Below are positions 46,988 through 53,584 of a stretch of 64,000 nt of DNA, one piece after another. The stretch lies in contig NZ_AP014723.1 of NCBI RefSeq assembly GCF_001548035.1, forward strand, positions 558,001 to 622,000, given 5' to 3'. The notes below the pieces were generated by a model. It was not told the DNA's origin. It did not search any database and saw only the letters and a program-made list of their open reading frames with translations. Every line of letters starts with the position of its first letter. Position 1 is the first letter of the stretch. The translations under genes and the position numbers were made by a program. The stretch is from Sulfurospirillum sp. UCH001 (lineage in GTDB: Bacteria > Campylobacterota > Campylobacteria > Campylobacterales > Sulfurospirillaceae).

Positions 46988-47343
46988 CCGTCATCAAAGC
47001 CTTGTGCTTTATGTTTTTCTTTTTTATAGCTTCCCCGATATTTCTCTTTCTCGAGCAAATTTGCCTCTTTCAAGAGGCGTTTATGCGTCTCTTCAATATC
47101 TCTATCTTCGATATGCGTAATGCTATTTGAAACTAAATTAACATAGTTTTGAAGAGCATTGGTGTAGGTAGAATCCAGTCTTGTTGGTTCAACTTTCTGC
47201 AGTGTTTTCAGACCTTTTTCTGCACGTTTCACAAAGAGTGCAAAGTCAAAGTTTTCATTTTTAAGGGCATTGACACAACTCCCTAAAAAGCGCTCTAGAG
47301 CTCTAATGTATTTGACTCTTGCATCTTTATCATTTATCTTCAT
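46981..47343 (-). CDS. Small hypothetical helical protein
   Basis: This 120-residue, charged, mostly helical protein starts MKINDKDARVKYIRALERF and ends in a basic KKEKHKAQGFDDGY tail. It matches no family I recognise. Its ATG overlaps the stop of the AEC transporter gene (ATGA), so it is the last gene of a minus-strand unit with fliN and fliO. An in-frame extension into the transporter gene is not supported. Confidence 0.65.
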   Translation of the reverse strand: MKINDKDARVKYIRALERFLGSCVNALKNENFDFALFVKRAEKGLKTLQKVEPTRLDSTYTNALQNYVNLVSNSITHIEDRDIEETHKRLLKEANLLEKEKYRGSYKKEKHKAQGFDDGY

Positions 47344-48269
47344 GGCATACTCACGATATTGAGGTAATGTAAAAGATTGCTCACTAAAATAAAGAAAGGG
47401 ATAAATACTAAAGATGTAAAAAAGACCAACACGGTTACATCCAGCGGTTTGCATTCATACAAAGCTGCTAGATTGACATTGGTTACTGCAAGTGGAACAA
47501 TGAGTTCAATGAAAATAAGTGTTGCGACCATCGGCTCTAAATTGAGTACTCCGTAAAGAATGGATGCAGCGATAATAGGTGTTATACCAAACTTAATGAA
47601 GCTTACATGTAAAAGCAGTTTATAATTGATACTGCGAAGCTTGATGTTGTAAAGGTACATTCCAAAGATAACAAGCTGAATGACCATGGTACAGTAAGCG
47701 CCCATTTCTAAAGGCGTTTTCATTGCAGGATGGAGTTTGATCTCAAAGACATTCATCAAAAGTGCTAAAGAGGCAAACCAAATCACAGGCAATTTTATGA
47801 TATTGAAAAGAGACTGTTTGATGCTAAAGTTACCGCGTGAATAGAAAAAGACACCGAGCGTGTAAACAATGAAAACATTGGTGATATTAATCATACTCAT
47901 GTAGATGATGGATGCGTCACCAAAAAGTGCAATACCTAAAGGAATACCTAAATTTCCTGTATTACCGATGATAACACAAATGATAATAATAGACTTTTCT
48001 TTGATGTCATCTTTGAAAAAGAGTATGGCTATAACGGAGCTGATAAGAACACAGATCAATGAAATCGCTAAGTACCAGAAAGGAGCTTGTAAAAGTGAAA
48101 AATCAATAGGTTTGCTTGAAAGTCCCCAAAACGATAGCATGGGTTGCAAAAAGTAGATGGAGAGAAGAATCATCCCTTTTTCGTTCATCTCATCTTTTAA
48201 CATTCTTTTTGCCATAAAACCAAGCAAAATAAAGGCATAAATAGACAAAATCGAGATGGCGATGGTCAT
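47340..48269 (-). CDS. AEC-family transporter (copy 1)
   Basis: This 309-residue integral membrane protein has about ten helices. NTGNLGIPLGIALFG and ELIVPLAVTNVNLAALY are hallmarks of the auxin-efflux-carrier family, which exports or imports organic acids such as malate. It lies six bases after the FliO-like gene, in the same direction, so it may be co-transcribed with flagellar genes. A close paralog is at 52658-53584. The substrate is unknown. Confidence 0.88.
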   Translation of the reverse strand: MTIAISILSIYAFILLGFMAKRMLKDEMNEKGMILLSIYFLQPMLSFWGLSSKPIDFSLLQAPFWYLAISLICVLISSVIAILFFKDDIKEKSIIIICVIIGNTGNLGIPLGIALFGDASIIYMSMINITNVFIVYTLGVFFYSRGNFSIKQSLFNIIKLPVIWFASLALLMNVFEIKLHPAMKTPLEMGAYCTMVIQLVIFGMYLYNIKLRSINYKLLLHVSFIKFGITPIIAASILYGVLNLEPMVATLIFIELIVPLAVTNVNLAALYECKPLDVTVLVFFTSLVFIPFFILVSNLLHYLNIVSMP

Positions 48270-49709: not shown

Positions 49710-50984
49710 ATGAGTCAAAACGCATCCCTCGATCGACGTGGTTTTTTTAAGAAGAGTGGCATCCTTGCCCTTATGAGTGCAGTGGGAAGTGAAATCCCTT
49801 TTGTACGTAATTTTCCAGGAGGTCTAGTTCCCGTAGCTATGGCTGCACCCACTATGGTGGAGCTGAACATTCCTGGTAAGAGTTTAGAGTTGGTGGTTCT
49901 TGGTGATAAGCCAGTTGTGGCTGAAACACCACCGCACCTTTTGGATAGTGAAGTCACGCCAAACGATTTGATGTTTATTCGTAACAACGGCTTGGTTCCA
50001 ACCAACATCAATGCTGCGACATGGACACTCACCATCGGCTCTGAAGCAACACCAAATTCTCCAGCAAGGGAAAGTGAGTCCACTAAGCGTACAGTGACAT
50101 TTACGATAGCAGAACTCAAAAGTAAATTCAAAAACTACACCAGCAACTTGGTGATCGAATGTGGAGGTAACGGGCGTTCAGAATTTAACCCTCCAGCAAA
50201 AGGCAATCAATGGACATTAGGAGGAGTGGGCTGCCCTTCTTGGACAGGTGTGCGCCTTAAAGATGTACTAGAGTATGTTGGACTCAAAAACGATGCTGTG
50301 TACATTGGGTACTATGGTTCAGACCCACATTTGAGTGGTGATGCAACTAAAGTGCCGATTTCTAGGGGTGTTCCGATTAAAAAAGCGTTGCAAGAAGATG
50401 CTTTGATTGTATGGGAAATGAATGGAGCACCACTACCTATACAAAATGGCTATCCTTTGCGCCTTGTCATCCCAGGTTACCCAGCATCTGTGAGTGGTAA
50501 GTGGTTGAACCGCATTGTCGTGCGCAATAAAGTACATGATGGCCCTAAAATGGTGGACGACTATCGTAATCCTTGCACACCTGTAGAGCCTGCAAGCGAT
50601 GTGCCTAACAGCAACATGTGCGTCATTGAAGAGATGCCGATCAAATCACTTATTACCTACCCAGCATCCGGTGCAAAATTTAACTTCGGTGATAAAGTCG
50701 AAATACGAGGCAATGCGTGGAGTGGCATCGGTGATGTTAAAGAAGTGTTTGTTTCCATTGACTTTGGGGCAACATGGATCAAAGCAAACCTCAAAAAACC
50801 TGTCAACAAATTTGCATGGCAACGTTTTAGTGCCAATTTGAAATTTCCTTCTAAAGGGTATTATGAGCTGTGGGCGCGTGCTGTTGATAAAAAAGGTGTT
50901 TCTCAACCGATGGTAATTCCTGGATGGAATCCTAAAGGCTATCTCAACAATGCAACACACCGCATCGCTGTAAAAATTGTCTAA
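49710..50984 (+). CDS. Periplasmic sulfite-oxidase-family molybdoenzyme (SorA/SoxC-like)
   Basis: This 424-residue protein has a twin-arginine signal (DRRGFFKKS at 8-16), so it is exported folded with its molybdopterin. The molybdopterin domain contains the Mo-ligand Cys C151 in ECGGNGRS and the WTLGGVGCPSWTGV and PLRLVIPGYPAS segments. A C-terminal dimerisation domain follows at about 310-420. With the adjacent monohaem cytochrome gene it resembles the sulfite:cytochrome c oxidoreductase pair that I remember from C. jejuni (Cj0005c/Cj0004c). It likely oxidises sulfite to sulfate. AAGGAG lies before the ATG. Confidence 0.87.
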   Translation: MSQNASLDRRGFFKKSGILALMSAVGSEIPFVRNFPGGLVPVAMAAPTMVELNIPGKSLELVVLGDKPVVAETPPHLLDSEVTPNDLMFIRNNGLVPTNINAATWTLTIGSEATPNSPARESESTKRTVTFTIAELKSKFKNYTSNLVIECGGNGRSEFNPPAKGNQWTLGGVGCPSWTGVRLKDVLEYVGLKNDAVYIGYYGSDPHLSGDATKVPISRGVPIKKALQEDALIVWEMNGAPLPIQNGYPLRLVIPGYPASVSGKWLNRIVVRNKVHDGPKMVDDYRNPCTPVEPASDVPNSNMCVIEEMPIKSLITYPASGAKFNFGDKVEIRGNAWSGIGDVKEVFVSIDFGATWIKANLKKPVNKFAWQRFSANLKFPSKGYYELWARAVDKKGVSQPMVIPGWNPKGYLNNATHRIAVKIV

Positions 50985-50995
50985 AAGGAGTTCAG

Positions 50996-51409
50996 ATGGG
51001 AAAAATCACAACGAGTTTGTTGGTTTTTATCGGGCTTTTGGTGTTAGGGTGTGCTCCAAAAGAAGAAGCGAGCCTTGTGCCTGTTAAAGCAGAGCCTGCT
51101 AAAACGGTAAAAGCAGAAGCAAAAACCACTAAATCGCCTGAAATAGACAAAGAGACTGGCCTTGTTATCGCAGAAGGGTTTGAAGTCGTCAAAGGGAACT
51201 GTACGGTGGCGTGTCACAGTGCAACACTCGTGACGCAAAATCGCGGGAATGAAAAGTATTGGAAAGATGCCATTGTGTATATGCAAAAAAACCAAGGTCT
51301 TTGGGATTTGGGGGCAGATGAGCCACGCATCATCAATTACCTAGCAACACATTATGGGCAAAGCCCTGTGTATCGACGTTCGCCTTTAAAAGTGAAATGG
51401 CAAGAATAG
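50996..51409 (+). CDS. Monohaem cytochrome c lipoprotein with CX3CH motif
   Basis: This 137-residue protein has a lipoprotein signal with lipobox VLGC (C19), a Lys/Ala linker and a compact haem domain. The haem motif is C69-T-V-A-C73-H74, one residue longer than CxxCH. The rest (SATLVTQNRG, YWKDAIVYMQKNQGLW, NYLATHYG) matches cytochrome subunits of sulfite dehydrogenases, with M96 a likely sixth ligand. It starts 11 bases after the molybdoenzyme gene with an AAAAGGAG site, so it is almost certainly the electron acceptor. Confidence 0.85.
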   Translation: MGKITTSLLVFIGLLVLGCAPKEEASLVPVKAEPAKTVKAEAKTTKSPEIDKETGLVIAEGFEVVKGNCTVACHSATLVTQNRGNEKYWKDAIVYMQKNQGLWDLGADEPRIINYLATHYGQSPVYRRSPLKVKWQE

Positions 51410-52294: not shown

Positions 52295-52661
52295 GTGTTA
52301 TCTTTTTCATGTGGGGCTAATGCCCATTTTCGCACTATCAATACCCATTTAAGCAGTGATTCATGCAACAATGTTTAGAGTATATCTGCAGGGAGTTTGA
52401 AAAAGTCAAAGACTATTTGCATTATCCAAGTCCTGCGAAAGAGCTGATTATCAACAATCTTTTTGAAAACTTTATGAAGTGCTTTTTAGAGTATCCGTTT
52501 GAAAAAAAGCGTTATCCCAAAGAGTTTTTAGAAACCGCCAATCTTTACAATGACGGTGATGTCGTGACACTCAAACGTTTTGAAGACATCGGTTGCGCTA
52601 TTTGCTCTTAAGTGACTTTTACGACTATGTGAAAATCACCCATCTCTACCAAAAAATCTAA
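52295..52661 (+). pseudogene. Small gene apparently broken by two frameshifts
   Basis: A strong AAGGAG (52284-52289) precedes a GTG at 52295 whose frame (MLSFSCGANAHFRTINTH...) stops at 52378. A second frame runs from ATG 52363 to 52611 for 82 residues (MQQCLEYICREFEKV... to DIGCAICS). A third frame then continues from about 52596 (LLLSDFYDYVKITHLYQKI) and ends at 52659-52661, overlapping the convergent transporter stop by 4 bases in the way intact genes here do. Joined, the pieces make one protein of about 120 residues of unknown family. Alternatively the 82-residue middle frame alone is the gene. Confidence 0.5.
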
Positions 52662-53584
52662 CCCAAATGTGCGATATCAAAGTAAGCGAGTAGGTAACTT
52701 ACCATCAGCAAAAAAGGAATAAACAGAAGCGAAGTAAAGAGTATGAGGCTTGCTACATCCACAGGTTTGCAGTCATAAAGGGCTGAAATGTTTACGTTGG
52801 TAACCGCCAGTGGCACGATGAGTTCTAAAAAAAGTACCGAAGCAACAAACGGCTCTAAGGGGAACACAAAAAAGAGCAGCCACACCGTAATGATAGGCAT
52901 GATGACAAATTTGATGAGGTGAACGTGCAACAACAGTTTGTAGTTCAGCTCTCCGAGTTTCATGTTGTAAAGGTACATTCCAAACACAATGAGTTGAAGT
53001 ACCACCATACAGTACGCCCCCATTTCCAGCGACTTAAAGAGAGTAGGGTGAATCACAATGCCTGCAAAATTAAGTCCAAGTGCGAACATCGCCGCCCAAA
53101 TGACGGGCAGTTTAAAGATGTTCAAAAATGCTTGTTTCATACTTGATGTACCTGCAGAGTAAAAAAATACACCCAAGGTATATGTCATAAGGGTATTGGC
53201 AACACTCATCATGCTGGTGTAGATGATAGAATCTTGTCCAAAGATGGCGATGCCAAGAGGAATGCCCAAATTGCCTGTGTTGTTAATCGCCGCGGCTATG
53301 GTCATGATGGAGCGCTCTTTCACATCTTCAAAAAACATTCTTGCAAAAATAAATCCTACGACAATGGTAAGAAGCGAAAAAAGGACATAATAAAACGGCA
53401 CTTGCAACAGCTCTAAGCTCATCGGTTTCGTGGAAAGTCCCCAAAATGAAAAGATGGGGTGCAGAAAATAGACCGAGAGAATGACCATACCGCGCTCAGC
53501 CAACTCTTCTTTGAAAATCTTTTTGGCAATGTATCCGAGTAGAATGAAAACATAAATGGCAAGAATGGAAAGCGCTATGTTCAT
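52658..53584 (-). CDS. AEC-family transporter (copy 2)
   Basis: This 308-residue integral membrane protein is clearly paralogous to the product of 47340-48269. It shares NNTGNLGIPLGIAIFGQDSIIY, SLEMGAYCMVVLQLIVFGMYLYN and LFLELIVPLAVTNVNISALYDCKP with only small changes. It probably carries an organic acid or similar anion. It is divergent from the marR gene. Sequence does not show whether it is in the MarR regulon, but its start lies about 80 bases from that promoter. Confidence 0.88.
   Translation of the reverse strand: MNIALSILAIYVFILLGYIAKKIFKEELAERGMVILSVYFLHPIFSFWGLSTKPMSLELLQVPFYYVLFSLLTIVVGFIFARMFFEDVKERSIMTIAAAINNTGNLGIPLGIAIFGQDSIIYTSMMSVANTLMTYTLGVFFYSAGTSSMKQAFLNIFKLPVIWAAMFALGLNFAGIVIHPTLFKSLEMGAYCMVVLQLIVFGMYLYNMKLGELNYKLLLHVHLIKFVIMPIITVWLLFFVFPLEPFVASVLFLELIVPLAVTNVNISALYDCKPVDVASLILFTSLLFIPFLLMVSYLLAYFDIAHLG

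Follow-up and report, generated by a model that had tools for sequence, protein, structure and literature searches.

The window, the stretch of 64,000 nucleotides of the Sulfurospirillum sp. UCH001 genome that was analysed here, contains a pair of forward-strand genes related to those for sulfite dehydrogenases. The features considered in this locus are:

49710..50984, + strand: sorA, encoding the catalytic subunit of a molybdenum sulfite dehydrogenase, with an N-terminal RRGFF (Tat-like) signal (PF00174, PF03404 and NCBIfam SorA)
50996..51409 (stop included), + strand: sorB-like gene for a monohaem cytochrome c of 137 aa, with a predicted lipoprotein signal (open reading frame; NCBIfam SorB match below cut-off; model compared with 2blf_B)
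51041..51052, + strand: predicted lipobox V16-L17-G18-C19 (sequence inspection)
51200..51217, + strand: CX3CH haem motif C69-T-V-A-C73-H74 (codons and homolog alignment), longer by one inserted residue than the motif of every CxxCH homolog
51281..51283, + strand: M96 (invariant column, aligned with a Met of Starkeya novella SorB, 2blf_B)

The SorA protein matches PF00174 (Oxidored_molyb, the molybdopterin domain; E 2.5e-45), PF03404 (the dimerisation domain; E 9.7e-19) and the NCBIfam SorA model (E 2.3e-67), the last yet below the curated cut-off. The sorB-like gene follows after a gap of 11 bases (sorA ends at 50984, sorB starts at 50996). Its open reading frame, 50996..51406 (+), has an ATG start, and the stop codon is at 51407-51409. 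The haem motif is encoded in frame by TGT ACG GTG GCG TGT CAC, and the sequence around it reads ...VKGNC-TVA-CHSATLVTQNRGNEKYWKDAIVYMQKNQGLWDLG...; the residues, the position and the single clean extra residue reported in the first-pass annotation of this DNA were exact. The protein has only three cysteines, namely C19 of the lipobox, C69 and C73, and CxxCH is absent from the whole 137-aa reading frame. Two similar permease-like genes, 47340..48269 (-) and 52658..53584 (-), with MTIAISILSIYAFILLGFMAKRM... and MNIALSILAIYVFILLGYIAKKI..., respectively, flank sorAB, as does such a pair in G181 and G228. This gene pair may be a duplication around which sorAB was gained or lost.

The match to the NCBIfam SorB profile NF052246 (E 2.1e-7, 30.9 bits) does not reach the curated cut-off of 93. 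As the CxxCH relatives from G411 and L032 also miss this cut-off (22.2 and 27.3 bits), the profile appears to be narrow, and we therefore refer to the protein as SorB-like. A full-length structure model was useless (pLDDT 46), and a model of residues 48-137 with a mean pLDDT of 74 was used. The solved structure closest to it is S. novella SorB, 2blf_B (VIA-align Z 8.2, rmsd 2.2 Å over 68 residues; next best 5.7), which is also the top Foldseek match (E 1.7e-3). The Met of 2blf_B that is aligned with M96 is the distal haem ligand there. Residues G55, C69, C73, H74, W89, I93, M96, Q97, L102, W103, E109, Y115, L116, Y120, R128 and L131 are invariant in the CX3CH and CxxCH proteins, and the CX3CH proteins have Tyr replacing the Trp immediately before Met96.

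Like the SorB of the sulfite:cytochrome c oxidoreductases of S. novella (2blf_B) and Campylobacter jejuni (Cj0004c), the protein has a sorA neighbour, in the same gene order, a SorB fold, and His and Met at the ligand positions. It differs from them in having CX3CH where they have a single CxxCH site, and its predicted signal is of the lipoprotein type, not plain Sec. The other three CX3CH species have the lipobox as well, whereas inspection showed none in the Campylobacterota CxxCH SorBs seen, which have plain signal peptides; a membrane anchor occurs in the SorB of the Bacteroidota-labelled L032. The earlier designation of the gene as the cytochrome partner of a sulfite oxidase is borne out by its place directly behind sorA, the SorB profile match and the SorB fold of the model. 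The SorB-like protein would function as a variant SorB. It would be a monohaem cytochrome of the periplasm, probably held by a lipid anchor, and would accept electrons from SorA during oxidation of sulfite to sulfate, with His74 and Met96 as putative axial haem ligands.

SorB-like matches were found in 64 of the 397 Campylobacterota genomes, including 9 of the 44 genomes examined of the family, and a search of viral contigs returned nothing. Within the window's genus, CT[VI]ACH occurs in four species (G000, G181, G228 and G414, hereafter the carriers; 68-86% identity to the window's protein), and G411 has CTVCH, i.e. CxxCH. The homolog set comprised 4 proteins with CX3CH vs 51 with CxxCH, the latter made up of 41 further close Campylobacterota homologs, 8 distant ones, G411 and L032. 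The Campylobacterota CxxCH homologs are 35-50% identical to the window's protein. SorBs of Bacteroidota-labelled and Acidiferrales-labelled genomes, and of Vibrio, Spirosoma, Pontibacter, Leisingera and Photobacterium plasmids, also have CxxCH; the loci read outside Campylobacterota were two genome loci and six plasmid loci. A general occurrence of CX3CH in Campylobacterota is ruled out, as every homolog read beyond the four carriers has CxxCH.

In a maximum-likelihood tree, the four CX3CH proteins form one clade (support 99/99), requiring one change. This clade is not a product of the inserted column itself, because that column, filled in 4 of 50 rows, was removed by the gap filter. CX3CH is a single, lineage-specific, selected insertion in sorB. 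Conservation of CX3CH among Campylobacterota homologs, which the first-pass annotation had proposed to examine, thus holds within this four-species clade and fails phylum-wide, and the isolated change that the annotation had considered as the opposite outcome was not found. In the ancestor of the sorAB copies in the four species, one codon, now Ala, would have been inserted between the haem cysteines, converting CxxCH to CX3CH, and would then have been retained by selection.

Among the four carriers, dN for sorB is 0.08-0.23, with dS values of 1.3 or more that are partly saturated; for sorA, likewise, dN is 0.02-0.12. The codon for the inserted Ala shows synonymous variation only (GCG/GCA/GCT/GCT), and the codons for Thr (ACG/ACA/ACC/ACA), the second Cys (TGT/TGC) and His (CAC/CAT) also vary. 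At the protein level, the motif is fixed except for Val/Ile. Since the protein is fixed while the codons vary and synonymous sites are near saturation, the motif is conserved by selection. Chance or gene decay to a pseudogene is excluded by a sorB dN/dS far below 1 and by the synonymous variation of the Ala codon. The sorA-sorB order is kept in the other carriers, and SorA is intact, with the C-G-G-N-G-R Mo-site stretch conserved in the alignment. The SorA of the CX3CH clade (L031, L061 and L062) also has an insertion of approximately 11 residues in the SEATPNSPARESESTKRT region (about 50050..50105 in the window), which is missing in most other aligned SorAs.

A PF01578 search identified three CcsBA genes in the genome, where the first-pass annotation had suggested looking for more than one CcsBA-type synthase. 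The first (897 aa) is near a 699-aa MccA-like protein with seven CxxCH and one CX15CH (locus L058), the second (799 aa) is beside nrfH and an nrfA with CWTCK (CXXCK; locus L060), and the third (1051 aa) is unlinked to any cytochrome (locus L059). The same trio is present in Wolinella, where CXXCK and CX15CH need dedicated CcsBA enzymes (PMC10663686). The SorB-like protein resembles MccA and NrfA, both of whose systems are found in this genome, in being a Campylobacterota cytochrome with an unusual haem motif, but while those two have a dedicated CcsBA, no synthase gene adjoins sorAB or is present in the window, and the PF01578 search found no fourth CcsBA in the genome. Two or three CcsBA genes were found in every near-complete genome of the genus, with or without sorAB. 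An extra synthase in the carriers is rejected at the level of gene counts, as relatives without sorAB have the same kind of set. The annotation's idea of a dedicated synthase is not supported; by neighbourhood, two of the three CcsBA are assigned to CX15CH and CXXCK substrates.

For the 1051-aa CcsBA type, every residue that the four carriers share also occurs in at least one of the 17 non-carriers. The carriers are scattered on the tree of this type, with three changes forced by well-supported branches, which indicates that CX3CH sorAB coexisted with several synthase versions, by loss or transfer, and with no matching change in the synthase. The mccA-linked and nrf-linked types include a few residues specific to three carriers, in a comparison with few controls and with G414 left out. 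The annotation of sorAB in Sulfurospirillum bins has been reported previously (PMC5518199). The genome studied here combines an MccA-like sulfite reductase with CX15CH (L058, 12780-14876) and the SorAB sulfite dehydrogenase (49710..51409), which represent opposite directions of sulfite metabolism.

The reading that we consider probable as a whole is that of a periplasmic SorB variant whose CX3CH arose by a single insertion and whose haem is bound via both cysteines by the action of an ordinary CcsBA. Both cysteines would most likely be bonded to haem c, with a loop accommodating the extra residue, and the enzyme responsible would most likely be the unlinked 1051-aa CcsBA, acting as an ordinary System II synthase and not as a dedicated one. 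We regard as reasonably likely the more specific claim that a naturally occurring CX3CH in a single-haem cytochrome receives its haem, bound to both cysteines, from an ordinary System II CcsBA without specialisation. Purified Helicobacter hepaticus CcsBA depends on the two thiols as well as the His, and rejects D-Cys and Ser; homocysteine is accepted at the first cysteine ('vertical' flexibility) and rejected at the second (PMC8112865). In CX3CH only the first cysteine is displaced, by one residue, which is where CcsBA has shown tolerance, and the ordinary CcsBA would therefore probably load SorB via both cysteines. Counting against this, CcsBA rejected several small motif changes in vitro (PMC8112865), and the rare motifs CXXCK and CX15CH depend on dedicated CcsBA enzymes in Wolinella (PMC10663686).

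The first-pass annotation had anticipated an unusual maturation substrate, but CX3CH is less exceptional than this implied. In MmcA of Methanosarcina, haem was demonstrated by mass spectrometry at CXXXCH and CXXXXCH (PMC11024163), although MmcA is matured by Ccm-type archaeal machinery and not by CcsBA, and CX3CH has been described in ImcH of Geobacter and in some CymA homologs (PMC6295460). The spacing of the cysteines and His is the same in all of these CX3CH sites, but they lie in multihaem proteins with mostly CxxCH sites, whereas the protein described here is a predicted single-haem cytochrome of the SorB type. The literature searched yielded no report of CcsBA being tested with a CX3CH substrate. 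In the window's own genome, the CX3CH pattern has 332 raw matches at the DNA level, a number that is inflated because the reverse complement of the pattern reads as Met-Ala or Met-Thr codons. A partial sample of 40 stretches, picked by eye from the listed plus-strand sites, included no other CX3CH cytochromes; these were other enzymes or short, probably non-coding frames.

Among the alternatives, maturation of CX3CH by a specialised paralogue, with SorB relying on the re-used mccA-linked or nrf-linked CcsBA, is unlikely. The non-standard CXXCK and CX15CH motifs use such enzymes (PMC10663686), and G000, G181 and G228 have both paralogues. Against this, each paralogue adjoins its known kind of substrate, the carriers have no extra synthase, and both paralogues are also found in relatives without sorAB. 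Going by the title of Kern et al. 2010, unconventional motifs are reportedly insufficient for attachment by NrfI and CcsA1.

We also think it rather improbable that haem is held by one thioether only, at Cys73 next to His74, leaving Cys69 free. Single-thioether cytochromes exist, and the second cysteine retains its place beside the His. However, Cys69 is invariant while synonymous sites are near saturation, and in vitro CcsBA attached no haem to single-cysteine peptides (PMC8112865). Loss of covalent haem, with haem b or none bound and C69 and C73 forming a disulfide or another site, is suggested by the departure of the motif from the textbook form, but is very improbable given that His74, Met96 and other core residues are unchanged relative to the CxxCH homologs and that SorA is retained alongside under strong purifying selection. 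A sequencing or assembly artefact, which the first-pass annotation had rightly thought unlikely, or a decaying gene is already refuted by the identical insertion, with differing codons, in four genomes of different species and by dN/dS far below 1.

The preferred reading, attachment by an ordinary CcsBA, bears on synthase specificity. The System II synthase is reported to be strict in its need for CxxCH, and those exceptions known in Campylobacterota have their own synthases. If the ordinary CcsBA does load CX3CH, System II does not strictly require CxxCH spacing, and the distance by which the first cysteine can be moved could be tested with this SorB as a simple, naturally occurring substrate. 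A selected CX3CH in a small single-haem cytochrome that lacks a dedicated synthase, and that has CxxCH counterparts within the genus, provides a clean natural pair for specificity tests. Cytochrome counts that rely on CxxCH alone miss likely real cytochromes.

Two further observations concern SorB homologs on plasmids. In Leisingera plasmid records (L133 2417-2746 and similar), they lie directly behind a sulfite oxidase gene and are labelled 'aldehyde dehydrogenase' or 'hypothetical protein'. In a Photobacterium plasmid (L134, around 2501-2707; record without annotation), a two-haem protein, encoded by a single 252-aa frame with CKACH and CSACH, has the SorB homolog as its second domain.
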